From the NCBI RefSeq assembly GCF_013375555.1, contig NZ_JABXWB010000001.1, positions 2,995,501 through 3,059,500 of the forward strand: a stretch of 64,000 nt of DNA, read 5' to 3'. Under the pieces are notes generated by a model, which saw only the letters and a program-made list of their open reading frames with translations, searched no databases and was not told where the DNA came from. Below, piece by piece: positions 7,616-20,065 of this stretch. The DNA comes from Sphingobium sp. EM0848. Lineage in GTDB: Bacteria; Pseudomonadota; Alphaproteobacteria; Sphingomonadales; Sphingomonadaceae. Every line of letters starts with the position of its first letter. The first letter of the stretch is position 1. Position numbers and translations under genes: made by a program.

Positions 7616-9265
7616 GGCTCTGACTCATATTTGATGCAATTGGCAGGTAGGGTTTGGTTGATTTTCCAAGGAGGATCAGCAGCATGCCTCGTCGATTGCG
7701 TAATGGAGCGTTGGTGCCAGCGGGCCTGGTGGTAGAACAGGTCGACAATGCTGGAGCGGTGATGGAAATCGCGGTTCGTTCAGCAAAGCCATATTCTCGG
7801 TGCCCAAGCTGCGACGTTAAGGCGGCGGCGGTGCATAGCCATTATTCCCGGCGGTTGGGTGACCTTCCGCTGGCCGGCCGATCCGTTCGTCTGGTTCTCA
7901 ATGCGCGGAGATTCCGCTGTCGGACAGCAAACTGTGCCAGACGTATTTTCGCCGAGCGCTTCGACACCGAGGTTGTGGAACCTTGGGCGCGCCGAACCAG
8001 TAGGCTCGGTTTGCTGGTCTTTCATCTCGGCTTGGCACTTGGCGGTCGGCCCGGCGCTCGTTTTGCCAATCGGCTGATGGCGCCCGTCAGCAAGGATACG
8101 CTGCTGCGGTCGATCCGTCGCCGTGGCCGTCCTGAACATGCTGCACCCACGGTGGTCGGCATTGATGATTGGGCATGGCGGCGCAATCAGCGTTACGGCA
8201 CAATTATCTGCGATCTCGAACGGCGTAGGCCGATCCGTTTGCTCCCCGATCGCGAGCCTGCCACCGCACGCGGCTGGCTCGTGGGACAACAGCAGATTGA
8301 GGTCGTCGCCCGGGACCGCGGAGGTGGATATGCGTTAGCCGCCGCCCAGGCCCTTCCCCACGCCCAGCAAGTGGCTGATCGTTGGCATCTGATGGAAAAT
8401 GCCAGCCACGCCTTTCTCGATGCGGTTCGCTGCTCGATGCGCGAAATCCGTACGGCGATCGGCACGACCATCGTTAATCCGGACCTGCTCACGGCGGCGG
8501 AACGCTTGCAATATGAGGGCTATCTTCGCCGACAGGAAAACAACGAAATCATTTTGAAGCAGGCAAAATCTGGGCTCGGTATCAAGGAGATCGTTCGCCG
8601 GACCGGGCGCAGCCGAGGTTATGTGCGGGCTGTGTTGCGTGGTCAGCGGACCGATATCTTCCGTACTCGGGAAAACTCCCTTGAAGCCTGGTTGCCTTGG
8701 CTCGATGCGGAATGGGCTGGTGGCCAGCGCAACGCTGCACAGCTTTGGCGGCAGATGCGACAGCAGGGCTTCGGGGGCTCGCTTCGGGTAGTGACCGAAT
8801 GGGCAACGCGGAAGCGGCGGGCGGAAAAAGCGGAGGGATTGCACCGGGTTCCGTCAGCTCGAACCATCGCGCGGCTGATGATGGTAGAGCGCGAAGCTCT
8901 TTCGAGAGCTGAAACGATCACCGTCGCGGCGATCGAGGAATCCGTCCCCGAACTCGTCGAGGCACGCGACATCACCGACGCCTTCCATGTCATGCTGCGG
9001 AAGAAAGCGGCCTCCTCTCTCGATGCCTGGCTCGAAAGAGCGCGTCAAAGCCTGGTGAACTCCTTCGCCCGCGGCATGACCAAGGACATCGACGCCGTTC
9101 GGGCCGCGATCGCCTCGAACTGGTCAAACGGGCAGACCGAAGGCCAGATCACCAAGCTCAAGCTCGTCAAGCGGCAGATGTACGGCCGAGCCAAGCTTGA
9201 CCTCCTGGAGGCCAGACTGATCGCGGCTGCGACATGATCTCCGTCATCAAAATTGCGTCAGAGCC
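7616..9265 (+). mobile_element. ISL3-family insertion sequence, apparently complete
   Basis: A 1650-bp element bounded by imperfect inverted repeats: GGCTCTGACTCATATTTGAT at 7616 and, read from the right end at 9265, GGCTCTGACGCAATTTTGAT, with 17 of 20 positions equal. It encodes one full-length transposase. The 8-bp flanks (CTAAAATT on the left, AACTTTGC on the right) do not match, so no target duplication is visible. Either a deletion followed insertion or one flank has been replaced. Confidence 0.8.
7684..9237 (+). CDS. ISL3-family transposase
   Basis: A 517-aa transposase. The N-terminal zinc-finger is visible as SRCPSCDVKAAAVHSHYSRRLGDLP followed by RRFRCRTANCARRIF. The DDE domain begins near VVGIDDWAWRRNQRYGTIICDLERRRPI, and ADRWHLMENA carries the second conserved aspartate region. 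A helix-turn-helix insert (GIKEIVRRTGRSRGYVRAVLRG) lies mid-protein, and the end SNGQTEGQITKLKLVKRQMYGRA holds the catalytic glutamate of ISL3 enzymes. The start at 7684 is supported by AAGGAGG at 7668-7674. The frame is intact. Confidence 0.95.
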   Translation: MPRRLRNGALVPAGLVVEQVDNAGAVMEIAVRSAKPYSRCPSCDVKAAAVHSHYSRRLGDLPLAGRSVRLVLNARRFRCRTANCARRIFAERFDTEVVEPWARRTSRLGLLVFHLGLALGGRPGARFANRLMAPVSKDTLLRSIRRRGRPEHAAPTVVGIDDWAWRRNQRYGTIICDLERRRPIRLLPDREPATARGWLVGQQQIEVVARDRGGGYALAAAQALPHAQQVADRWHLMENASHAFLDAVRCSMREIRTAIGTTIVNPDLLTAAERLQYEGYLRRQENNEIILKQAKSGLGIKEIVRRTGRSRGYVRAVLRGQRTDIFRTRENSLEAWLPWLDAEWAGGQRNAAQLWRQMRQQGFGGSLRVVTEWATRKRRAEKAEGLHRVPSARTIARLMMVEREALSRAETITVAAIEESVPELVEARDITDAFHVMLRKKAASSLDAWLERARQSLVNSFARGMTKDIDAVRAAIASNWSNGQTEGQITKLKLVKRQMYGRAKLDLLEARLIAAAT

Positions 9266-9975: not shown

Positions 9976-10656
9976 CCCGTTCCGTTATTTCAACTCGTCG
10001 CTCGGCTGGTTGTGATGATGTACGTCCGCTACCCTTTGTCGCTGAGGAACGTGGAAGATTTGCTGTTTGAGCGCAGCATCGACATTAGCCATGAGACGGT
10101 TCGGCTTTGGTGGAACCGGTTCGGTCCGCTGTTTGCTGGCGAAATCCGGCGTCAGCGGATTGATCGGTGCGCGGCTTCCGGCACTGGCGCTGACATCTCG
10201 ATGAGATGGTCGTGAAGATAAACGAGGAGAAGGTGTATCTGTGGCGGGCTGTGGATCACGAGGGCGAGATTCTGGAGAGCTACGTTACGAAAAAAACGCG
10301 ACAAAAGTGCCGCTTTGGCCTTCATGAAGAAGGCTCTCAAACGGCATGGATCACCTGACAGGACCGTTACCGACCGGCTTCGATCCTATGGTGCCGCCAT
10401 GAAGGAACTTGATATTGGCGGAAAGCAGGAGACTGGACGTTGGGTAAACAACAGGGCGGAAAATAGTCACCTGCCCCTCCGGCGAAGAGAACGGGCGATG
10501 CTGAGGTTTCGCCGGATGCGGTCCCTACAGAAATTCGCATCGGCTCACGTCCACTTCCACAATCATTTTTCTCTGGAGCGCCATCTCGTCAACCGACAGA
10601 CCTACAAGGAAAGATGCTCGGCGGCATTGGTCGAATGGCGGTCTCTGGTGAGCTGA
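9956..10656 (+). pseudogene. IS6-family transposase, multiply frameshifted
   Basis: Joining frames yields an almost full IS6-type transposase: MSKPVANPFRYFNSS, LVVMMYVRYPLSLRNVEDLL, HETVRLWWNRFGPLFAGEI, YLWRAVDHEGEILESYVT, FMKKALKRHGSPDRTVTDRL, and the end RRRERAMLRFRRMRSLQKFASAH. Frame changes occur near 10003, 10155 and 10290 and there is an in-frame TGA in the HLDEM region (10189-10191). The IS6 terminal repeats are not visible on either side. It is a dead fragment. Confidence 0.85.
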
Positions 10657-10751
10657 GTTCCGCTGCTTCGAGTCTGAATTGTATCGTGTGGAGAGCGTTT
10701 CGCCTTTGTCTGACACCACCAATGGCCGTTCCGCGTCGTTGAAAGATCTCA

Positions 10752-11681
10752 TCAAGCGAGTTCTTGTTTCTCGGAAGCCGCTTTATATTCAGCCTCCCCA
10801 GCGCCATCTCGTCTCATCCGATGCGCGATCGCGCGTAAGGCGCGGATCAGAGCGGTACGGCTGCGCTCTCGCTGACAGACGAGGTAGCAGCCCAGTTTGA
10901 AGTCGCCGGCGGGCAGGTCCAGCGTGCGATAGGTCAAACGCGTGTCCGGCGGACATTCCGCCGAAAAGAACAGGCCGATGCCCAATCCGAGCGCGATCCC
11001 CTCGCGGATCGTTTCCCGGTTGCCCAGTTCCAATGTCGTCGGCGCAATCCCGGCGGCGGCCAGCGCGCGCTCCGTGAAGGCACGGGTCTTCGATGTCGGT
11101 TCGCGCATCAGCAAAACCTGATCGCAGAGCGCTCCCATCGGGACGCTCGCCCGCCCCGCAAGCATATGATCCACCGGCATCGCGCAGCGCAAGCTATCGA
11201 TGAAGATCGGATCATAGCTGAACCCGGCATCGGCTGGAGGGTCGCTCGCGACGGCAGCGTCGATCTGGCCATCGGCGAGCAGCCGCATGACTTCGCGCGC
11301 ATTGCCCATGCGGACCTGCACGGTGACGTTCGGATGCTGCTGGCGGAAGCCGTGCACCATGCGCGCGCCATAAAGTGGAGAATCCGAAGCGAGCCGTAGC
11401 GTGCCGCCGTTCATCTCCACGGATTCGCCGAGCATCTCGTCAATGTCCGATGCGACAGCGAACAGCCGTTCGGTGAGCGCGAACAGGTCGCGGCCAGCGG
11501 CTGAAAGCTGCATCGGCGGCTTGCGATTCTCGAACAGCGCAAAGCCGTGACGCTCCTCCAGCGCCTTCAGCTGCTGCGACAATGTCGGTTGTGAGACATG
11601 GAGGCGACGCGCGGCGCGGGTGACGCTGCCATCCTGCGCGATGGCGTGGAATGCCCGCAAATGCTGGTAATTTGCTGCCAT
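10752..11681 (-). CDS. LysR-family regulator of the phosphonate module
   Basis: A 309-aa LysR regulator: an N-terminal winged HTH (residues 1-60, HLRAFHAIAQDGSVTRAARRLHVSQPTLSQQLKALEE) and a periplasmic-binding-like effector domain (about 90-295). It is transcribed divergently from the TonB receptor gene, with a 176-bp shared intergenic region containing a T-N11-A palindrome. The neighbour set implies it senses an aminophosphonate or its aldehyde product and activates the operon. LysR regulators occur beside PhnWX clusters in other proteobacteria; the ligand here is inferred only from context. Confidence 0.9.
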   Translation of the reverse strand: MAANYQHLRAFHAIAQDGSVTRAARRLHVSQPTLSQQLKALEERHGFALFENRKPPMQLSAAGRDLFALTERLFAVASDIDEMLGESVEMNGGTLRLASDSPLYGARMVHGFRQQHPNVTVQVRMGNAREVMRLLADGQIDAAVASDPPADAGFSYDPIFIDSLRCAMPVDHMLAGRASVPMGALCDQVLLMREPTSKTRAFTERALAAAGIAPTTLELGNRETIREGIALGLGIGLFFSAECPPDTRLTYRTLDLPAGDFKLGCYLVCQRERSRTALIRALRAIAHRMRRDGAGEAEYKAASEKQELA

Positions 11682-11740
11682 GGCAAAAGCGCACCTAGGG
11701 CGTCTGCATGACTTTTCTGTGACGATTTGGGTTCATCTCC

Positions 11741-11755
11741 ATAGGTCTCGCCTAT
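11741..11755. promoter_or_regulatory. T-N11-A palindrome, candidate LysR operator
   Basis: ATAGG (11741-11745) and CCTAT (11751-11755) form a perfect 15-bp dyad with T at 11742 and A at 11754, the classic LysR box geometry. It lies in the middle of the divergent region, 60 bases from the regulator start and 103 from the receptor start. Confidence 0.5.
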
Positions 11756-11857
11756 CGTCGACATTCAAGCAAAGCCTTGGCGGCGGCATCGGGTTCCGGA
11801 CCATAGAGCGCATCGCGGACCTCGGGCGGTTCGTCATCGCGAAAAAGGATTTGGGAC

Positions 11858-14305
11858 ATGAAACCCGAAATGCGGGGACTTTTGTGCTGCACTGCCGCAG
11901 CGGCACTGCTGATCGGCGCCAGCGCGGCCCATGCGCAGGATGCGGCGGCGGCCGACAAGGACGAGCTGCCGCAAGGGAGCGTGGTCGTGGTGACTGCGGC
12001 GCCGGTGGCGCGCGGTAACATGATCGTCGATACCGAACGGCTGCGCGAGCAGGGCGCGGCGCTCAATGTGGTCAATGCGATCGCCGATGTGCCGGGCGTT
12101 TCGATCCGCGGATCGGATGCCTATAATTCCGATCCCTGGAGCTATGGCATCAACATCCGCGGCTTTGACGTGAATCTGCGTTCGTCGAAGATCGGCCAGA
12201 CGATCGACGACATGCCGGCCTATAACGCCTCCTATTATCTGGGCGGCGCACCGGCGCAGAAATATCTTCAGAGCGAACTGATCGGCAGCATCCGCGTCGA
12301 TCAGGGCACGTCCTCCGTCTCCTCGGCCTCGGCCTCCGCGCTGGGCGGCACCATCGCCTATTATACCCGCGATCCGGGCGAGGAAACCGGCGGCCTGTTG
12401 AGCATGTCGATCGGCGATTACGGCCTGCGCCGCTATGCGGGCTATATCGATACCGGCCGTTTCCTGAACGGGTCGACCCGCGCCTATATCGGCATGGCGC
12501 GCCTGACCTCGTGTCGATGGGCCTATGGCTGTGCCGACCAGAGCGGCAGCGACGAATGGCATGCCGAGGGCAAATTCGTCAGCGAACTGGGCAGGCTGAC
12601 GCTCACCGGCCGCGTCTCGTGGGACAAGGCGGTCGACGATCCCCTGATCGAGGCGTCGCGCAAATTCCTCGACACCACCAACGCGCCCGACGGATCGGTG
12701 CCCAACTGGACCGGCACCACCCCGGCCGGGGTCAATGAAAACTGGGCGCATGTCTGGTCGGCGCACCGCGAGAATCTGTTCGGCTATGTGAAGGCCAGAT
12801 ATCAGGCGAGCGACGCGCTGAGCTTCGAGATCGCCCCCTATTACCACCGGCAAAAGGGGCAGGGCGACTGGGCGCCGCCCTATCAGCAGATCGCGCTCGA
12901 CCCCAATGGCGTGCGCACGATCGCAGGCGGCACCGCGCCGGGATCGAGCCGCAAAAAGGCCTATTATGCCTGGACCGATGCCAGCGGCCGCCAGCGCCCG
13001 GTCGTGCAGGGGCTGGACTATACCGATATCGACGGCACGCGCATCCTCTCCTCCTATTGCTATGGCGCGGGCGGCGCGGTGAATACGGCGTGCGTGCCGA
13101 CGCAGACCTACCGCACCAGCCTCTACGGGCATGACCGGTTCGGCTTCACGTCGAAAGTCACGCTCGACACCGGCCGGAACCGGATCGAGGCCGGCCTGTG
13201 GTATGAGCGGCTCAACCGCAATTTCGGCCGCTGGTGGCGCCAGATCGCCGATATCCGCAAGGGTCCGGCCTATTATACCGATCCTCAGCTGATCGACTTC
13301 ATGCAGCATTTCACCACCAATCAGTGGAAGCTCCATGCCGAGGATTCGCTGGAACTGGGCCGGCTGACCGTCACCGCTGGCGTCCAGAAATACTGGATCG
13401 ACATCAGCGGCGAGACCGAGGGCTGGGACGCGTTCGGCAAGAGCGTTGCGCCGCTCAGGACCCGCCTCAACGCCGACAGCGACCCGCTGTTCAGTCTGGG
13501 CGCCGTCTATGACTTCGGCAACGGGTTGCAGGCGTTCGCGGGCTTCTCGCAAAATTACGGCGCGGTGGGAGACTGGGCGCTGGAGAAGACCCAGACGGAC
13601 ACGTCGAAGCTGCAATCATCGGTGGCGAACGATTATGAGGCTGGCCTGCGTTTCGGCAATCGCCGCGTCTCGGCCACGCTGACGGGCTATTATATCGACT
13701 ATCGCCACGCGATCAGCTTCTATTCGGCGGACTTCGTGTCGGGTGGGCCTTCGGGATCGGCGAGCGGCATCAACTATACGGCGGGCACGTCGGGCGCCTA
13801 TGCCAATAGCGGCAAGGGCATCGCCTCGCGTGGGGTCGAAGCGGCAGCCGCCTATCGCGTCACCCCGCATTTCGACCTGAACGCCGCCTTCACCTGGAAC
13901 CGCTCGACCTATCAGGAGGCATTTCTGGGCGGCACGGCCAATGCGGGCACCGACGTGCAGGTCGCCAAGGGCAACAAGGTGCCCGGCGCGCCGACCACCC
14001 TGGTCTCGCTCGGCGCCGATTATCATGACGATGCCCTGCGCGCCGGGGTGCGCTTCAAGCACACCGGCAGGACGCCAGGCGATGCGGTGAACAGCCCGGC
14101 CAATTATCTGCCGGCATATAATATCGTCGACGTCTCGGCGGGCTATCGCTTCGCCCTGGACGGCAAGCGCTATCTCGACGCGCAGATCAACGTCACCAAC
14201 CTGTTCGAAGAACATTATATCGGCGGCATGCTCGACGAATTCACCCAACTCTACACGCGGGGTGCGCCGCGCACCGTATCCGCAACGCTCAGCGTCGGTT
14301 TCTGA
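11858..14305 (+). CDS. TonB-dependent outer-membrane receptor, probably for a phosphonate
   Basis: An 815-aa receptor. The signal peptide covers residues 1-27 (LLCCTAAAALLIGASAAHAQ). The plug domain (about 45-170) shows ALNVVNAIADVPGVSIRG, NIRGFDVNLRSSKIGQTIDDMPAY and a GALGG-like turn; the remaining 640 residues form the 22-strand barrel and the protein ends TVSATLSVGF with the terminal phenylalanine needed for assembly. No carboxypeptidase-like or FecA-type N-terminal extension is present, so it does not signal to an ECF sigma factor. As first gene of the operon it should import the substrate across the outer membrane, powered by TonB. A siderophore role is possible but does not fit the operon. 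Confidence 0.9.
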   Translation: MKPEMRGLLCCTAAAALLIGASAAHAQDAAAADKDELPQGSVVVVTAAPVARGNMIVDTERLREQGAALNVVNAIADVPGVSIRGSDAYNSDPWSYGINIRGFDVNLRSSKIGQTIDDMPAYNASYYLGGAPAQKYLQSELIGSIRVDQGTSSVSSASASALGGTIAYYTRDPGEETGGLLSMSIGDYGLRRYAGYIDTGRFLNGSTRAYIGMARLTSCRWAYGCADQSGSDEWHAEGKFVSELGRLTLTGRVSWDKAVDDPLIEASRKFLDTTNAPDGSVPNWTGTTPAGVNENWAHVWSAHRENLFGYVKARYQASDALSFEIAPYYHRQKGQGDWAPPYQQIALDPNGVRTIAGGTAPGSSRKKAYYAWTDASGRQRPVVQGLDYTDIDGTRILSSYCYGAGGAVNTACVPTQTYRTSLYGHDRFGFTSKVTLDTGRNRIEAGLWYERLNRNFGRWWRQIADIRKGPAYYTDPQLIDFMQHFTTNQWKLHAEDSLELGRLTVTAGVQKYWIDISGETEGWDAFGKSVAPLRTRLNADSDPLFSLGAVYDFGNGLQAFAGFSQNYGAVGDWALEKTQTDTSKLQSSVANDYEAGLRFGNRRVSATLTGYYIDYRHAISFYSADFVSGGPSGSASGINYTAGTSGAYANSGKGIASRGVEAAAAYRVTPHFDLNAAFTWNRSTYQEAFLGGTANAGTDVQVAKGNKVPGAPTTLVSLGADYHDDALRAGVRFKHTGRTPGDAVNSPANYLPAYNIVDVSAGYRFALDGKRYLDAQINVTNLFEEHYIGGMLDEFTQLYTRGAPRTVSATLSVGF

Positions 14306-14375
14306 ACCGGCGCCAGCCGGTCGCGACGGGTTCCCCCTTCCCGCGCGGCCGGCCTTTTTTCCCAGGATCTGAACA

Positions 14376-15515
14376 GTGAATGACATGAGTTTCGATATCG
14401 CCGTGATCGGCGCTGGCATCGTGGGTCTTGCCCATGCGCTGGCCGCTGCCCGTCACGGCAAGCGCGTGGTGGTGATCGACCGTGATGCGCAGGCCAATGG
14501 CGCTTCGGTCCGCAATTTCGGCTTCGTCACCGTGACCGGGCAGGAGGCGGGCCAGGTCTGGCGCCGCGCCCGCCGCTCGCGCGACATATGGGCAGAGATT
14601 GCCGGGCCAGCCGGAATCGTGATCGAGCAGCGCGGCCTTGTGCTGGTCGCGCGCCGCCCGGAAGCGCGGGCGGTTGCCGAGGCATTTCTGGCGACCGACA
14701 TGGGCGAAGGATGCCGCTGGATCGATGCCGGGGCGGTGCGGCGGGATTTCGCGCCGCAGGCGACGGCGATCGAGGGCGCGCTGGTCAGCGACATCGACCT
14801 GCGCGTTGAATCGCGAACCGCCATCCCCGCGCTCGCCCGCTGGCTGGCAGAAGCGATGGGCGTCACCTTCCTGCGCCAGACGGCGGTGTATGGCGTCGAG
14901 ACCGGATTGCTGGCGACCAGTGCGGGCACGATCCGCGCCGACGCGATCCTCGTCTGCACGGGGGACGATCTGACCGGGCTTTTCCCCCGCGCCCATGCCG
15001 ATGCCGGTGTAACCCGCTGCAAGCTCCAGATGCTGCGGCTGGCGAACCCCGGCTACCGGCTGCCCGCAGCGGTTATGTCCGATCTCGGCATGGTGCGATA
15101 TCTCGGCTATTCGGCATTGCCCGAAGCCGCCGCGCTGCGCGTGCGGCTGGAGGCCGAGCAGGCCGCTCATCTCGCGCACGGCGTCCATCTGATCGTCACG
15201 CAGAGCGCCGACGGCAGCCTGGTGGTCGGCGACAGCCATCATTATGCCGCGACGCCCGATCCCTTTTCGCTGGAGGAAGTCGACCGGCTGATCCTCGACG
15301 AGTTCGGGCAGGTCTTCGGCCATACGCCCCCGGCGGTGATCGAGCGGTGGACCGGCACTTACGCCTCCGGCCCCGGTCACAGCCTGATCGCCGAACCGCT
15401 GCGGGGCGTGACGCTGGTCACCGTGACCAGCGGCACCGGCGCCTCGACCGGCTTCGGGCTGGCCGAGGAAGTGATGGGCAGGATTCTGGGTATCGCAATG
15501 GGAGAAGAGGCATGA
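14376..15515 (+). CDS. FAD-dependent aminophosphonate oxidoreductase (TIGR03364 type)
   Basis: A 379-aa DAO-fold flavoenzyme. The dinucleotide-binding motif is at the N-terminus (IAVIGAGIVGLAHALAAARHG, residues 7-27), followed by the family block GASVRNFGFVTVTGQEAG, and it ends with the FAD-binding segment TVTSGTGASTGFGLAEEV. I recognise it as the proposed aminophosphonate oxidoreductase family found next to phosphonatase genes. It would oxidise the amine of 2-aminoethylphosphonate, its N-methyl derivative or a hydroxylated relative to the aldehyde. A GTG (14376) or ATG (14385) start is possible. Its stop overlaps the phnX start (ATGA), so the two are translationally coupled. Confidence 0.85.
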   Translation: MNDMSFDIAVIGAGIVGLAHALAAARHGKRVVVIDRDAQANGASVRNFGFVTVTGQEAGQVWRRARRSRDIWAEIAGPAGIVIEQRGLVLVARRPEARAVAEAFLATDMGEGCRWIDAGAVRRDFAPQATAIEGALVSDIDLRVESRTAIPALARWLAEAMGVTFLRQTAVYGVETGLLATSAGTIRADAILVCTGDDLTGLFPRAHADAGVTRCKLQMLRLANPGYRLPAAVMSDLGMVRYLGYSALPEAAALRVRLEAEQAAHLAHGVHLIVTQSADGSLVVGDSHHYAATPDPFSLEEVDRLILDEFGQVFGHTPPAVIERWTGTYASGPGHSLIAEPLRGVTLVTVTSGTGASTGFGLAEEVMGRILGIAMGEEA

Positions 15516-16324
15516 GTTTTCCGGTCAAGGCCGTGATATTCGACTGGGCGGGCACGATGATCGATTTCGGCTGCCGCGCCCCCGTCATGGCGCTCCAGCG
15601 CCTGTTCGCCGATGCCGGTGTCGACATCAGCGAGGCGGAGGCGCGGGCCGATATGGGCCGGGCCAAGCGCGACCATATCCGCGCGCTGCTCGCCATGCCG
15701 CGCATCGCGGACGCCTGGCGGGCGCGGCACGGCGCGGCGGCCAGCGAGGCGGACGTCGATCGTCTCCACGATGCGGTCGAGCCGCTGATGCGGGCCGCCG
15801 CGGCCGACTGCGCCGGGCTGGTCCCCGGCGCGGCCGAGACGGTCCAGCGGCTCAAGGATGCGGGTGTCAGAATAGCGTCATCGACGGGCTATACCCGCGC
15901 GATGATGGCCGACATCCTGCCCCTTGCCGCCGAACAGGGCTATGCTCCGGAATTCGTGGTCTGCGCCGGCGAAACCGCGGAAGGACGGCCTTCGCCCCTC
16001 ATGATGTGGAAGGCGCTGGTCGAACTCGGCGTCTGGCCGTCCGCCGCCTGCATCAAGGTCGATGACGCGCCGGTCGGCATCGCCGAGGGGCGTGAGGCTG
16101 GCAGCTGGACCATAGGCGTCGCCGCCTCGGGCAATGGCGTCGGCTTCGACTATTGCGCGTTGCGCAAACTGGATGCGGCGGAACGCGACCGGCTCGTCCT
16201 GGCATCCGCCGACGCCCTGCGCGCTGCCGGTGCCGATTATGTGATCGACAGTGTCGCCGATCTCTGGCCGGTGGTGGAGACCATCGCCGCGCGGATAGCG
16301 ACTGGCGAACGTCCCGGCCGGTGA
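15512..16324 (+). CDS. phnX: Phosphonoacetaldehyde hydrolase (phosphonatase)
   Basis: A 270-aa HAD-superfamily enzyme that splits phosphonoacetaldehyde into acetaldehyde and phosphate. The nucleophile is Asp11 in FDWAGTMIDFG, and the Schiff-base lysine that defines true PhnX is Lys52 in ADMGRAKRDHI. Later motifs are ASSTGYTRAMM (HAD motif II), GRPSPLMMWKAL and VKVDDAPVGIAEGR-like IKVDDAPVGI (acidic motif). Length agrees with the family (about 270). The ATG at 15512 overlaps the preceding stop; a longer reading of the frame lacks support. Both key residues are present, so the reaction assignment is firm, and it fixes the pathway for the operon. Confidence 0.94.
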   Translation: MSFPVKAVIFDWAGTMIDFGCRAPVMALQRLFADAGVDISEAEARADMGRAKRDHIRALLAMPRIADAWRARHGAAASEADVDRLHDAVEPLMRAAAADCAGLVPGAAETVQRLKDAGVRIASSTGYTRAMMADILPLAAEQGYAPEFVVCAGETAEGRPSPLMMWKALVELGVWPSAACIKVDDAPVGIAEGREAGSWTIGVAASGNGVGFDYCALRKLDAAERDRLVLASADALRAAGADYVIDSVADLWPVVETIAARIATGERPGR

Positions 16325-17652
16325 GCATGACCATGCCCCTGGCCGAACCGGCACCGGCCGCCCGCGAGAGTGCGGTGCGCCGGTGGCTGCGCGGCGCGCC
16401 GCCAGCGCTGTTCGCGCTCTATGGCGGCAGCGCGGCCTTCCTCGCCTATTCGGCGATGTACGCCTATCGCAAGCCGTTCGCCGTGGCCGAATATGCGCAT
16501 GTCGCGGGTTGGGGCTTCGCGCTGGATTACAAGGTCGCGCTCGTGATCGCGCAGATCATTGGCTACGCGCTGTCCAAGTTCATCGGGATCAAGCTGATCT
16601 CCGAGTTCCGCGCCGAACATCGCGCAACCGGCATAATGCTGCTGACCGGGCTGTCCGAACTGGCGCTGATCGGCTTCGCGCTGGCGCCGCCGCTCGTCGG
16701 GCTGGTCGCGCTGTTCGCCAACGGGCTGTGCCTTGGCATGATCTGGGGGCTGGTGTTCGGCTTCCTCGAAGGGCGGCGGGTTTCGGAAGTGCTGGGCGCG
16801 ATGCTGTGCGCCAGTTTCATCCTCGCTTCGGGCGCGGTGAAGTCGGTGGGCAGCGCGCTGATGCTCGCTGGCCTCGCCAATGAGCATTGGATGCCTGCGG
16901 CGACCGGGCTGGCGGCGGCGCCGGTGCTGCTTCTGTCCGTCTGGGCGCTCGCACAGCTTCCCCCGCCCACCGCCGAGGATGAGGCGGCCCGCGTCCGGCG
17001 CGTGCCGATGGGAGCGGCGGCCCGCATGGCCTTCCTGCGCGCGCATGCGCCGATGCTTGCGCTGCTCATCGGCATCTATGTGCTGCTGACCGCCTTCCGC
17101 GATTTCCGCGACAATTTCGCCGCTGAAATCTGGCACGAACTTGGCTATGCGGGCGAGGCGAGCATCTTCACCTGGTCCGAGCTGCCCGTGGCCGTGCTGG
17201 TGCTGACCGCGCTCGGCCTGCTGATCCGCGTGCGCGACAATCGCCGGGCCTTGCTGTGGAACTTCGCGCTGATCGCGGGCGGCCTGCTTCTCGTCGGCCT
17301 CTGCACGCTGGGCTTTCAGCTCGGCTGGCTGGGCGCGGTGCCGTGGATGATCCTGCTCGGCGCAGGCCTCTATCTCGCTTACACCCCGTTCAACGGCCTG
17401 CTGTTCGACCGGTTCATGGCGGCGGCAGGCACGCTCGGCAATGCCGCCTTCCTGATCTACCTTGCCGATGCGAGCGGCTATGCGGGCAGCGTCGCACTGC
17501 TGCTGCTCCGGAACTTCGGGCATATCGCGATCAACTGGATCGGCTTTCTGTGCATCAGTGCTTACGCGCTGTGCGGACTGGGGCTGCTCGCCCTTGGTCT
17601 CGCGGCGAGGCTTTGGTTGCAGGATCGCCGCCATCCCCATCTCCGCACTTAG
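16321..17652 (+). CDS. Inner-membrane transporter, DUF5690/MFS type
   Basis: A 443-aa polytopic membrane protein with about 12 hydrophobic segments between residues 35 and 430. Motif AFLAYSAMYAYRKPFAVAEY in the first segment and LISEFRAEHRATGIMLLTGLSELALIGF further on fit the DUF5690 family, which I place within or close to the MFS. A GTG start at 16321 overlaps the phnX stop (GTGA); ATGs at 16327 and 16333 are alternatives. As last gene of the operon it probably carries the phosphonate, or less likely exports a product, across the inner membrane, replacing the usual PhnCDE/PhnSTUV ABC system. Confidence 0.8.
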   Translation: MSMTMPLAEPAPAARESAVRRWLRGAPPALFALYGGSAAFLAYSAMYAYRKPFAVAEYAHVAGWGFALDYKVALVIAQIIGYALSKFIGIKLISEFRAEHRATGIMLLTGLSELALIGFALAPPLVGLVALFANGLCLGMIWGLVFGFLEGRRVSEVLGAMLCASFILASGAVKSVGSALMLAGLANEHWMPAATGLAAAPVLLLSVWALAQLPPPTAEDEAARVRRVPMGAAARMAFLRAHAPMLALLIGIYVLLTAFRDFRDNFAAEIWHELGYAGEASIFTWSELPVAVLVLTALGLLIRVRDNRRALLWNFALIAGGLLLVGLCTLGFQLGWLGAVPWMILLGAGLYLAYTPFNGLLFDRFMAAAGTLGNAAFLIYLADASGYAGSVALLLLRNFGHIAINWIGFLCISAYALCGLGLLALGLAARLWLQDRRHPHLRT

Positions 17653-17806: not shown

Positions 17807-18703
17807 CTAGGCAGAGCGATATTGTGCAACAATCTCATTCACCATCCGGCGAACATCGTTGCGCCGATATCCGAGCAGAGCAGTTTCGCTTGCGTCCGGC
17901 TCATAGAACAGGTTGTTGCCGCGGCCCGCGAAAATCGCCGCGTCGGGCATCATGGGATGCTCCTGGTCGAGCACCGGCGGCACCGGCCGCCCGGCCGCTT
18001 CGAAGAACATGCCGAAATATTGTTGGTAGGAGAGGTTCTCGTCGCCGACCAGATAGGCTTTGCCGCCTTCGCCGCGCTCGATCGCGCCCTCGACCGCCTC
18101 GGCCAGCGACTGGGTGGAGATGAAGTTGACGCCGCCCCCCGGCGCGAAGTCGGGCATCGGCGCGAACTTGCCCTCGGCATATTGGGTGTAGGCGGCGAAC
18201 ATCGGCACGACCAACCCCGGCACCGCGCCCAGCACGAAGGGGGCGTTGACGCTGATCGCCTTGAAGCCGGGGCCGTTGAGCGCGCGGACGCCGTCGTCCG
18301 AATCCTTGCGGGATTCCACATAGCGATTGCCGGCGACGAGGTGCGGTGCCGCCTGCGGGTAGAAGCTGCCGACGTTGATTGCCACCTTCACGCCCGCGTC
18401 CTTGGCGAGTTGGAAGAAGCGCGGCACCGCGACCGAATTGACCTTCTTCCAATAGGTTTCGCTGTCCTCGCCCTCGGGGATGTGACGGACGTCTTGGCCG
18501 GCGCAGAACACAAGCGCGTCGAAACCCGCGGGGAAGGAAGTGTTGTTGATATAATCAATCTGGAGGAAGGGCAGGTCGCCCAGCGGCGTGCCCGCGGCCG
18601 GCGGCGTGCGTCCGGCGATGCTGACGTCGTGGCCTTTGGACTTGAGGTGGAGTGCGGCGTGGCCGCCGATCATGCCGGCACCGCCGACGACGATAATCTT
18701 CAT
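17807..18703 (-). CDS. NAD(P)-dependent epimerase/dehydratase-like oxidoreductase
   Basis: A 298-aa extended or atypical SDR. The nucleotide-binding motif GGAGMIGGHAALHLKSKGHDVSIAGR is at residues 7-32, and the C-terminal half has the substrate-binding character of epimerase-type proteins (GGKAYLVGDENLSYQQYF). The canonical YxxxK is represented by a degenerate NRYVESRKD, so classical SDR catalysis is doubtful. It follows the SDR gene at 18732-19559 after 28 bases and is likely cotranscribed under the divergent HxlR regulator. Substrate unknown. Confidence 0.8.
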   Translation of the reverse strand: MKIIVVGGAGMIGGHAALHLKSKGHDVSIAGRTPPAAGTPLGDLPFLQIDYINNTSFPAGFDALVFCAGQDVRHIPEGEDSETYWKKVNSVAVPRFFQLAKDAGVKVAINVGSFYPQAAPHLVAGNRYVESRKDSDDGVRALNGPGFKAISVNAPFVLGAVPGLVVPMFAAYTQYAEGKFAPMPDFAPGGGVNFISTQSLAEAVEGAIERGEGGKAYLVGDENLSYQQYFGMFFEAAGRPVPPVLDQEHPMMPDAAIFAGRGNNLFYEPDASETALLGYRRNDVRRMVNEIVAQYRSA

Positions 18704-18731
18704 GGACTTGTCTCCGGAATTTGAAGTGAAA

Positions 18732-19559
18732 TCAAAAAATCAGGCCGTCGGTGGGAATTACTGGCACGTTCGTCCACTTGCCCTCGGCGGTGCGATACCA
18801 GCCCGACGCCGCCAGCGCGCCGCCGTCGATGTTGAGCGCCACGCCCGTCATCCACGAGGCCAGCGGACTCGCCAGGAACAGGATGCCACCCGCCATGTCC
18901 TCCGGCGTGCCGAAACGGCCGAGCGGGATCCACTGCTTGATCGAGTCCTTATATTCCGGCTTGATATACTGGCTGATCGCGACCTGCGGTGTGTCGGTTG
19001 TCTCGGGCGCGATCAGGTTGACGCGGATGCCCTCGGGCGCGAGGTCGAGGGCAAGGCTCTTGGTGAAGCCAATGATCCCGGTCTTGAACGTCGAATAGAC
19101 TGAGTTGAACGGGATGCCGCGATAGCCCTCGATCGAGGATACGCTGATGATGCTGCCGCCGGCCCCGCGCTTGCGGATCAGCGGGATCATCGCTCGCGTC
19201 ACCGAGAAAAGCTGGCGCATGTTGGTGGCGTAGAGCCGCTCAATATCTTCGTCAGTGTGATGTTCGAAGCGCTTCACGATCATCAGGAAGTCGCCGACAT
19301 TGTTGACCAGCACGTCCAGCCCGCCAAATCGCTGCTCGATTGTCTTGGCCAGTGCGTCCACGTCCGACTGAACCGTTACGTCACCGTCGACGACGAGATG
19401 CTGGTCACCCAGCGCCGCGCGTACGTCGGCAGCGCGGTTCGCGTCTTTCTCGATGGTGACGACAGTGGCGCCCGCTTTCGCGAAAGTCTCGCATGTCGCG
19501 CGGCCGATGCCGGCGCCGCCGCCCGTGACGAGGGCTATTTTCCCCGCAAAGTCGATCAA
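18732..19559 (-). CDS. SDR-family oxidoreductase
   Basis: A 275-aa classical short-chain dehydrogenase. The NAD(P) motif is TGGGAGIGRAT (residues 12-22), followed by NNVGD (the NNAG equivalent) near 90, the catalytic serine block IISVSSIEG near 140 and YSTFKTGIIGF with catalytic Tyr and Lys near 155. It ends with MTGVALNIDGG. It would oxidise or reduce an alcohol/carbonyl. It is the first gene of a two-gene unit divergent from an HxlR regulator. Confidence 0.92.
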   Translation of the reverse strand: MIDFAGKIALVTGGGAGIGRATCETFAKAGATVVTIEKDANRAADVRAALGDQHLVVDGDVTVQSDVDALAKTIEQRFGGLDVLVNNVGDFLMIVKRFEHHTDEDIERLYATNMRQLFSVTRAMIPLIRKRGAGGSIISVSSIEGYRGIPFNSVYSTFKTGIIGFTKSLALDLAPEGIRVNLIAPETTDTPQVAISQYIKPEYKDSIKQWIPLGRFGTPEDMAGGILFLASPLASWMTGVALNIDGGALAASGWYRTAEGKWTNVPVIPTDGLIF

Positions 19560-19579
19560 AGTGGCTCTCCTGATGGAAT

Positions 19580-19649
19580 GGTTCGTATTTTTATGATGAT
19601 TATGCTACGCACGAACCGATGGCAATCAGGCACCTTTTGGAGTGAAGGT
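19580..19649. promoter_or_regulatory. Candidate operators between the SDR operon and hxlR-type gene
   Basis: Two inverted repeats lie in the divergent region: GGTTCGT (19580-19586) with ACGAACC (19611-19617), 24 bases apart, and ACCTT (19632-19636) with AAGGT (19645-19649), 8 bases apart. HxlR-type dimers bind short dyads in such regions. Which one is used is not decidable by eye. Confidence 0.35.
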
Positions 19650-19678
19650 AACTTTTTGGGAACTATGGGGGCGATTCG

Positions 19679-20065
19679 ATGATACAGGATAATTATCCCG
19701 CGCTGTCCTTGGAGATCATGGACCTGGTCGGCGACAAATGGACGCTGCTGTTGGTCTATACGCTGGGCGACGGGGCACTGCGTTTCTCCGAATTGCGTCG
19801 CCGCGCGATGCCGATCAGCCAGAAGATGCTGTCGCAGACGCTACGCGGGCTGGAACGCCACGGCATGGTCGACCGCAACGTGCTGCCGACCGCGCCGCCG
19901 CATGTGGAATATGCGCTCACCGATCTCGGCCGCACTTTCCTCTCGGCGGCGAAGGTGATCTGCCAGTGGACCAAGGATAATCTGGCGGAATTGCAGGAGG
20001 CGCGGGCGAGGTTCGACACGGAGCGGCGGGCAGTGGATCAGCCGCGTGCGGGCTTCCGGCACTAG
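19679..20065 (+). CDS. HxlR-family transcriptional regulator
   Basis: A 128-aa winged-helix regulator: SLEIMDLVGDKWTLLLVYTLGDGALRFSELRRRAMPISQKMLSQTLRGLERHGMVDR covers the recognition helix and wing start, and VEYALTDLGR is the family's wing motif. Family members sense aldehydes, quinones or redox stress and usually control a neighbouring oxidoreductase, here the divergent SDR genes. There is no conserved N-terminal redox cysteine. The stop codon TAG (20063-20065) is part of the first palindromic repeat at 20062, so the repeat has probably set the C-terminus. Confidence 0.9.
   Translation: MIQDNYPALSLEIMDLVGDKWTLLLVYTLGDGALRFSELRRRAMPISQKMLSQTLRGLERHGMVDRNVLPTAPPHVEYALTDLGRTFLSAAKVICQWTKDNLAELQEARARFDTERRAVDQPRAGFRH

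Follow-up and report, generated by a model that had tools for sequence, protein, structure and literature searches.

How a sphingomonad could use natural aminophosphonates with neither the transaminase PhnW nor a known ATP-binding cassette (ABC) importer is the question raised by a locus of Sphingobium sp. EM0848, which lies in a 64-kb stretch of DNA that we call the window (other loci are designated L and genomes G, each with a number). In this locus, the gene of a LysR-type regulator is divergent from four genes that code for a TonB-dependent receptor, an FAD-dependent oxidase, the phosphonoacetaldehyde hydrolase PhnX, and a membrane protein of the DUF5690 family. Judging from the sequences, the operon probably imports natural aminophosphonates and degrades them with the oxidase and the hydrolase. 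We assign a probability of roughly 0.7 to the reading that it is an inducible aminophosphonate-use operon, in which LysR exerts control, the receptor and DUF5690 mediate import, the oxidase (PbfD type) and PhnX carry out oxidation and hydrolysis, and neither PhnW nor C–P lyase nor a known ABC phosphonate importer is involved. In other genomes, the neighbors of DUF5690 genes point to a role of the family in the import of small molecules that contain phosphorus. The enzyme half of the operon has already been published, and the DUF5690 carrier family is what looks new. The features of the locus are as follows.

10752–11681, minus strand: LysR-type regulator, AepR/phn_lysR-like, divergent from the operon (PF00126 and PF03466; TIGR03339 below cut-off)
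11741–11755, plus strand: predicted LysR operator, ATAGG-N5-CCTAT, in the region that separates the LysR and receptor genes (motif counts)
11858–14305, plus strand: TonB-dependent outer-membrane receptor (PF07715 and PF00593)
14316–14353, plus strand: GC-rich hairpin followed by TTTTTT in the receptor/oxidase gap, a possible attenuator or mRNA-end stabilizer (fold, inverted repeats)
14376–15515, plus strand: predicted PbfD-type FAD-dependent aminophosphonate oxidase (TIGR03364)
15512–16324, plus strand: PhnX, phosphonoacetaldehyde hydrolase (TIGR01422; alignment to PDB 3iru and 2iof)
16321–17652, plus strand: putative DUF5690 inner-membrane carrier, likely a distant relative of organophosphate:phosphate antiporters (PF18943, profile match, neighborhoods)

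In the proposed mechanism, LysR would sense the substrate or a product and activate transcription from ATAGG-N5-CCTAT. The receptor would let 2-aminoethylphosphonate (AEP), N-methyl-AEP, or a conjugate pass the outer membrane, and DUF5690, as a divergent major facilitator superfamily (MFS) protein in the style of GlpT and AepP, would carry the substrate across the inner membrane. With O2, PbfD would then yield phosphonoacetaldehyde, ammonia or methylamine, and H2O2, as published for its relatives, and PhnX would convert phosphonoacetaldehyde to acetaldehyde and phosphate, as is known for its family, the residues of which are conserved here.

Open reading frames and family scans agree on the five genes at the places given in a preliminary description of this DNA, and both overlaps named there are real: ATGA at 15512 (oxidase/PhnX) and GTGA at 16321 (PhnX/carrier). 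That description had spoken of four tightly linked genes, which is true of the overlapping oxidase, PhnX, and carrier genes but not of the receptor and oxidase genes, which are 70 bases apart with no overlap; since this gap contains the hairpin and six T, the receptor/oxidase pair is linked less tightly than the other three genes. The open frame of the oxidase, called from 14376, has a further in-frame ATG at 14385.

Oxidase and hydrolase

The FAD enzyme of the window matched TIGR03364 with 405.4 bits (cut-off 285.1) over residues 7–365 of 379 and is the sole TIGR03364 protein above the cut-off in its genome, whereas the ThiO model gave 67 bits only. In a tree of 81 sequences, it grouped with PbfD enzymes linked to DUF5690 and PhnX, apart from Escherichia coli SolA, PuuB, and DadA, which were the outsiders of a tree that held no sarcosine or glycine oxidase proper and no PbfD1 or PbfD2 references. 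Together, these results support a predicted function as a PbfD-type enzyme. The window PhnX matched TIGR01422 with 335.5 bits (cut-off 220). Its Asp11 and Lys52, both named in the preliminary description, align with Asp12 and Lys53 of chain 2iof, which we take to be Bacillus cereus phosphonoacetaldehyde hydrolase, the Asp being presumably the catalytic nucleophile and the Lys the Schiff-base lysine.

The reaction of PbfD enzymes is established. According to excerpts of a recent study (PMC10590968), such enzymes, one of them annotated as TIGR03364, oxidize N-methyl-AEP with O2 to phosphonoacetaldehyde with published kinetics, the efficiency of PbfD2 on AEP is just fourfold lower than on N-methyl-AEP, and PbfD2 plus PhnX constitutes a PhnW-free route. 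A hydroxy derivative, which had been guessed as a substrate, gives way to N-methyl-AEP in the same excerpts (PMC10590968).

PhnW reached 19 bits at best in the window genome (cut-off 401) and exceeded the cut-off in none of the 100 genomes of a search among relatives, its own included; two distant ones reached 215–227 bits. The earlier proposal that an FAD oxidase replaces PhnW is supported, with a TIGR03364 score of 405 bits and PhnW below the cut-off genome-wide, though oxidation in place of PhnW had already been published (PMC10590968, in the excerpts cited). Among the 28 PbfD loci of a phylum sample besides the window, PhnW was nearby in just 3, so an oxidase with no PhnW nearby is usual and not exceptional. 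The window genome yielded no match to the binding-protein families PF12974 (PhnD-type) and PF13343 (AepX-type), no PhnJ (C–P lyase), and no GlpT relative elsewhere at 1e-10 (14 of 17 first-look candidates scored); hence, no known phosphonate importer was found in it among the types sought. The genome-wide profile searches led us to reject a hidden PhnW, PhnD, AepX, or C–P lyase; a carrier of the AepP type at another locus was rejected on the GlpT search, within the candidates scored.

DUF5690 as a divergent carrier family

The window carrier matched PF18943 (DUF5690) with 468.9 bits against a gathering cut-off of 25, and no NCBIfam model at E <= 1e-3, TIGR00881 and TIGR00712 included. Links to MFS models were faint: the DUF5690 protein of L201 matched PF07690 (MFS) with E 0.2 at best, and a precomputed PF07690 domain was present in 1 of 120 listed homologs (P0059). 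The DUF5690 profile had no match among PDB sequences at E <= 10, and a plain hydropathy average did not confirm the 12 helices that the preliminary description gives for the window carrier.

A relationship emerged on profile comparison. DUF5690 (86 sequences) matched the GlpT/UhpT-containing organophosphate:phosphate antiporter (OPA) family (16 sequences) over nearly the full length with a probability of 93.4% and E 2.5e-7 as a single comparison, and with 83.4% in the other direction. Non-OPA MFS sets gave 0.2–0.9% (LacY/FucP/NarK/EmrD, n = 4; XylE/NanT, n = 2; eight other MFS matches), reversed-profile controls 0.2–0.3%, and five random four-sequence OPA subsets, each containing GlpT, 48–79%. 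Among the single sequences tried, GlpT alone matched over the full length; these sequences included E. coli fryC, an unrelated membrane protein kept as a control, and a cynX fragment. As a scale, a GlpT profile scored 92% against sugar and mixed MFS sets over shorter stretches, so the result means that DUF5690 is a distant MFS relative, nearest to GlpT by this test. Arg45, Lys46, and Lys80 of GlpT align with Arg50, Lys51, and Lys86 of DUF5690, which are present in 86, 85, and 86 of the 86 sequences, respectively. Arg45 and Arg269 are the phosphate-binding residues of GlpT. DUF5690 is likely a divergent MFS carrier, linked to GlpT through profile comparison only.

Gene neighborhoods of DUF5690

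The preliminary description had proposed to count the neighborhoods of this kind. We collected the best 80 of at least 574 DUF5690 relatives, picked by DUF5690 similarity alone, so that the loci are near to the window's carrier. Flanks extended up to 10 kb and reached 9 kb at each end in just 48 of the 80 loci. Neighbors were annotated with profiles made from recurring neighbors, each named via one representative in NCBIfam and Pfam. The hidden Markov model thresholds were home-made, as was the ABC test, which required Walker A and a signature motif within the same open frame. The phospholipase C and PhnW representatives scored above their NCBIfam cut-offs, and those of the PhnR-like, HD-oxygenase-like, and PhoC-like groups below.

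PhnX was found in 46 and PbfD in 45 of the 80 loci (both in 42), while PhnW was found in 4 and an ABC ATPase motif in 6; in 40, PbfD and PhnX occurred together in the absence of both PhnW and an ABC ATPase. Any of three TonB receptor groups was present in 51. PbfD, PhnX, and DUF5690 genes were contiguous and co-directional in 25 loci, and the exact LysR/receptor/PbfD/PhnX/DUF5690 order of the window recurred in 3 (L021, L040, and L055; two Caulobacter, one Phenylobacterium). When 11 loci were compared with the window protein by protein, the identity was 42–80% in ten and 25–49% in L096.

Other recurring neighbors were HD-domain phosphonate-oxygenase-like (31 loci), phospholipase C (23), PhnR-like (20), LysR (19), and PhoC-like (PAP2 acid phosphatase; 9) genes. 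The first three occur beside DUF5690 together with PbfD-PhnX in L018, L028, L043, L045, L050, L073, L074, and others; salvage of phosphonolipid head groups is a possible role of such clusters. Away from phnX, DUF5690 lies beside PhoX (L201, 7845–10587), a metallophosphoesterase (L070), or a PhoC-like gene. It adjoins a HisJ-type phosphatase gene in L063, according to a family search, and in L093 and L095, where the assignment is by similar N-termini only. In L080 of Halobacteriovorax (10016–12234), it is beside a GDPD gene, as glpT adjoins glpQ in E. coli. These neighborhoods suggest organophosphorus compounds as the common thread, with exceptions. A GlpT relative is located beside LysR, PhnW, and PhnX genes, like AepP, in L127 and L128.

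Co-occurrence of DUF5690, PbfD, and PhnX

In a phylum sample of 398 genomes, including that of the window, DUF5690 was present in 10, TIGR03364 above the cut-off in 27, and both in 7 (P 3e-7, with genomes taken as independent here and below). With the window left aside, TIGR03364 was found in 6 of the 9 DUF5690 genomes (P 3e-6). Of the PbfD loci, 16 of 22 from genomes that have no DUF5690 carried an ABC ATPase motif no more than 5.2 kb from PbfD, versus 0 of 7 from those that have it (P 0.001; 0 of 6 and P 0.002 with the window left aside). The three TonB receptor groups showed the opposite distribution (4 of 6 DUF5690-genome loci versus 0 of 22 others), a contrast toward which the receptor profiles lean because they were built from DUF5690 loci.

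Among 61 genomes of the genus, DUF5690 occurred in 6, all of them among the 7 with PhnX over the cut-off (P 1e-7; P 1e-6 with the window left aside). Whether or not the window is counted, the association of DUF5690, PbfD, and PhnX is far beyond chance. No DUF5690 was seen in the seventh PhnX genome, G034 (450 contigs, 91% complete). There, a cluster (L205, 5467–9787) codes for LysR, PhnX, a PsrA iron alcohol dehydrogenase (TIGR03405, over the cut-off), and a PgtP/GlpT-like carrier, so that the same slot is filled by either DUF5690 or a GlpT-type carrier. The G034 cluster may be a counterpart built on the same plan for hydroxyethylphosphonate, the presumed substrate of such a PsrA-type cluster.

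Receptor, hairpin, and operator

The window receptor is 70% identical to its counterparts in L021 and L040, the genes of which lie between those of LysR and PbfD, and 80% identical, over 764 residues, to that of L048. Relatives with at least 40% identity were seen in DUF5690 loci only, a restriction that is built in because the loci were chosen by DUF5690. In the 61 genomes of the genus, with up to 16 candidates scored per genome, 3 other matches were found at E <= 1e-60 (31–35% identical); the one in G054 belongs to a genome that has no PhnX over the cut-off, and the one in G034 is on another contig than PhnX. At 31–35% identity, the receptor thus does not track phosphonate genes. It had no match among PDB sequences. 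We infer its role in aminophosphonate uptake from adjacency only. The proposed replacement of an ABC importer by a receptor plus DUF5690 fared unevenly: the carrier part agrees with the lack of PF12974 and PF13343 matches and with the occurrence of DUF5690 beside phosphonate genes in many genomes, and the receptor part goes as far as adjacency does. In 17 of the 80 loci (L020, L022, L030, L041, L046, and others), a TonB receptor gene has as its neighbor a gene for a TPR protein that contains a sulfotransferase domain.

The hairpin between receptor and oxidase, located with its six T in 14316–14360, has a folding energy of −31.4 kcal/mol (z −1.86), and 10 of 200 shuffled sequences folded as well. 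A terminator scan did not list it, since the loop has 9 bases and the scan allows up to 8. Visual inspection showed inverted repeats of different sequence at this position in L021, L040, L048, and L055, and none in L038. The hairpin perhaps sets the production of more receptor than enzyme.

The palindrome ATAG-N7-CTAT, first noticed in the window itself, occurs there just once in 64 kb (0.06 expected). It is present in 11 of 20 corresponding divergent regions (the window, L018, L019, L020, L021, L038, L040, L042, L047, L049, and L069), and the longer form ATAGG-N5-CCTAT in 6 of 20. Outside the divergent regions, ATAG-N7-CTAT was found 5 times elsewhere in the same 376 kb and 7 times in 1.07 Mb of other loci. 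ATAG-N7-CTAT is a candidate operator of the aminophosphonate LysR of Alphaproteobacteria. No Pho-box-like site with up to 3 mismatches to the consensus was found in 11682–11857; phosphate-starvation control by a Pho box was rejected, as the window has 15 weak sites against 10.7 expected and none in that region.

Comparison with known systems

The PbfD2–PhnX route of Mariniblastus fucicola (Zangelmi et al. 2023, PMC10590968) is the same as that proposed here in that an FAD oxidase yields phosphonoacetaldehyde for PhnX with no PhnW. The main text of that study mentions no TonB, MFS, or DUF protein. The absence of PhnW would fit a place of the window enzyme in the PbfD2 subgroup. AepP, which is encoded with PhnW and PhnX in Pseudomonas putida BIRD-1 (Murphy et al. 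2021, PMC8316502), is likewise a LysR-associated single MFS permease in place of an ABC importer; however, it is described in excerpts of that work as a GlpT relative with 27.75% identity, whereas the window DUF5690 matches no Pfam or NCBIfam MFS model. The aepXVW-phnWAY operons of Alphaproteobacteria, as far as the same excerpts go (PMC8316502), have a single LysR and aminophosphonate use in common with the window operon, but they contain an ABC importer and PhnW, PhnY, and PhnA, which the latter lacks. GlpT-GlpQ and UhpT antiporters resemble DUF5690 in the nearly full-length profile similarity, the aligned Arg45, Lys46, and Lys80, and the DUF5690-GDPD pair of L080, which mirrors glpT-glpQ; they differ in gene context and in Arg269, which is not aligned with an Arg of DUF5690.

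In the open-licence literature, we found no published work on DUF5690 or PF18943, none that joins a phosphonoacetaldehyde hydrolase to a TonB-dependent receptor, and no title or abstract start that links aminophosphonates to a TonB receptor or to a carrier of the DUF5690 family. TonB receptors in excerpts of PMC5955973 concern iron, and those of PMC12366243 treat transporters in such clusters in general terms only. The transport half of the route had been considered undescribed, which appears to hold for DUF5690, a family with no published function in that literature, but not for a single MFS carrier of AEP as such, given AepP (PMC8316502, excerpts).

If our reading is true, it shows how sphingomonads and caulobacters can take up natural aminophosphonates, and such bacteria would be overlooked when phosphonate use is mapped by counting phnD, aepX, or aepP. 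It would also assign a function to DUF5690, to which 5,022 protein clusters, out of 7,998 candidates scored, were matched at E <= 1e-3.

Weighing the alternatives

Several observations weigh against the reading of the locus as an aminophosphonate operon with a GlpT-like importer. None of five phosphonate markers was detected in 21 of the 80 DUF5690 loci (9 truncated, 12 with at least 9 kb on both sides), and DUF5690 also lies beside a Na+/H+ antiporter (L023), a peptidase (L039), or a prenyl synthase (L094) gene; the family is thus no marker of phosphonates alone. DUF5690 and PbfD are on different contigs in 2 of the 7 phylum genomes that have both, and the co-occurrence P-values ignore relatedness. 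Three different receptor groups occupy the DUF5690 neighborhood, and bacteria of this kind have many TonB receptors. The LysR protein scored 246.1 bits against TIGR03339 (phn_lysR), below the cut-off of 341.1, yet this was its best NCBIfam match. As for the carrier, no PF07690 match was found at E <= 1; the OPA set had more sequences (16) than the controls (8, 4, and 2), and all of its random subsets included GlpT; the OPA members UhpT and UhpC gave no convincing match when used alone; and a four-sequence AepP-like set gave 14% one way and 0.6% the other. Arg269 of GlpT aligns with Leu256 of DUF5690, although an invariant Arg260 (86 of 86) is one helical turn away.

The competing explanations concern the enzymes, the substrate, and the direction of transport. 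The FAD enzyme shares superfamily PF01266 with amine oxidases of the sarcosine/glycine type, and its PDB matches with E up to 1e-5 are confined to two glycine oxidase chains, the better one with E 8e-7, as would be expected if it acted on an unrelated amine beside an incidental PhnX. This we regard as very improbable, given 405 bits for TIGR03364 against 67 for ThiO, the separation from SolA, PuuB, and DadA in a tree that held no sarcosine or glycine oxidase proper, and the joint presence of PbfD and PhnX in 42 of the 80 loci; an identity as a sarcosine/glycine oxidase was rejected on the scores and the tree position. A different substrate has more in its favor: the carrier and receptor might import another organophosphorus compound, such as phosphoethanolamine, phosphocholine, or a glycerophospho- or glycerophosphono-compound head group, with the enzymes treating only its phosphonate part. 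The phospholipase C genes in 23 of the 80 loci belong to a phosphocholine-specific family, PhoC-like PAP2 acid phosphatases accompany 9, and L203 has DUF5690, phospholipase C, and a TonB receptor with no PhnX within its 17 kb. Since neither a phospholipase C nor a PhoC-like gene was detected in 4001–26000 of the window, and PbfD and PhnX are direct neighbors both here and in the 25 contiguous loci, we consider it unlikely for this operon. DUF5690 might instead export the phosphate made by PhnX, or another product, while AEP enters by another, unrecognized carrier. OPA-type carriers bind phosphate, and DUF5690 adjoins genes for GDPD, PhoX, HisJ-type phosphatase, and PAP2 acid phosphatase; in excerpts of PMC8316502, marine bacteria on AEP as a nitrogen source export phosphate. 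The operon has no other candidate importer, and ABC ATPase motifs are lacking near PbfD where DUF5690 is present. PhoX and acid phosphatases are as a rule outside the cytoplasm, where their products need import, and export seems quite improbable to us.

Import by DUF5690 is preferred, and a coupling to phosphate would bear on what the operon provides. By analogy with GlpT, the substrate might enter in exchange for phosphate, a tentative idea against which the odds lean somewhat. In that case, the net phosphorus gain would be nil, the operon would serve nitrogen and carbon supply, and the bacteria would release phosphate while feeding on aminophosphonates. The complete route to phosphate put forward earlier may therefore miss the purpose of the operon, since a phosphate-exchanging carrier would bring nitrogen and carbon with no net phosphorus. 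According to excerpts of PMC8316502, AepP is needed for AEP as the sole nitrogen source, and delayed growth on AEP as a phosphorus source remained in the absence of AepP and AepXVW. The phosphate release from AEP-fed cells in these excerpts (PMC8316502) concerns marine strains with an ABC importer, and the strain followed up has no AepP; it gives no pointer to exchange, which is a further point against the GlpT-like reading. In its widest form, which we hold at not quite even odds, DUF5690 would be a widespread outlying GlpT-type branch that imports aminophosphonates, and elsewhere phosphate esters, released outside the cytoplasm. A TonB receptor dedicated to it, and in many cases a secreted phospholipase C, would act together with it, and head groups of phosphonolipids and phospholipids would be eaten by phosphate exchange for nitrogen and carbon.

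Flanking regions

An ISL3-family transposase gene (7654–9237) is located about 1.5 kb before the LysR gene, and the G+C content of the operon (64–69%) is higher than that of the left flank (57–62%) and mostly higher than that of the right (60–65%). Together with the lack of a close receptor relative in the 60 other genomes of the genus, these features would fit acquisition by transfer. Downstream (17807–20065), epimerase-like and short-chain dehydrogenase genes on the opposite strand are followed by an HxlR regulator gene, with no evident link to the operon.

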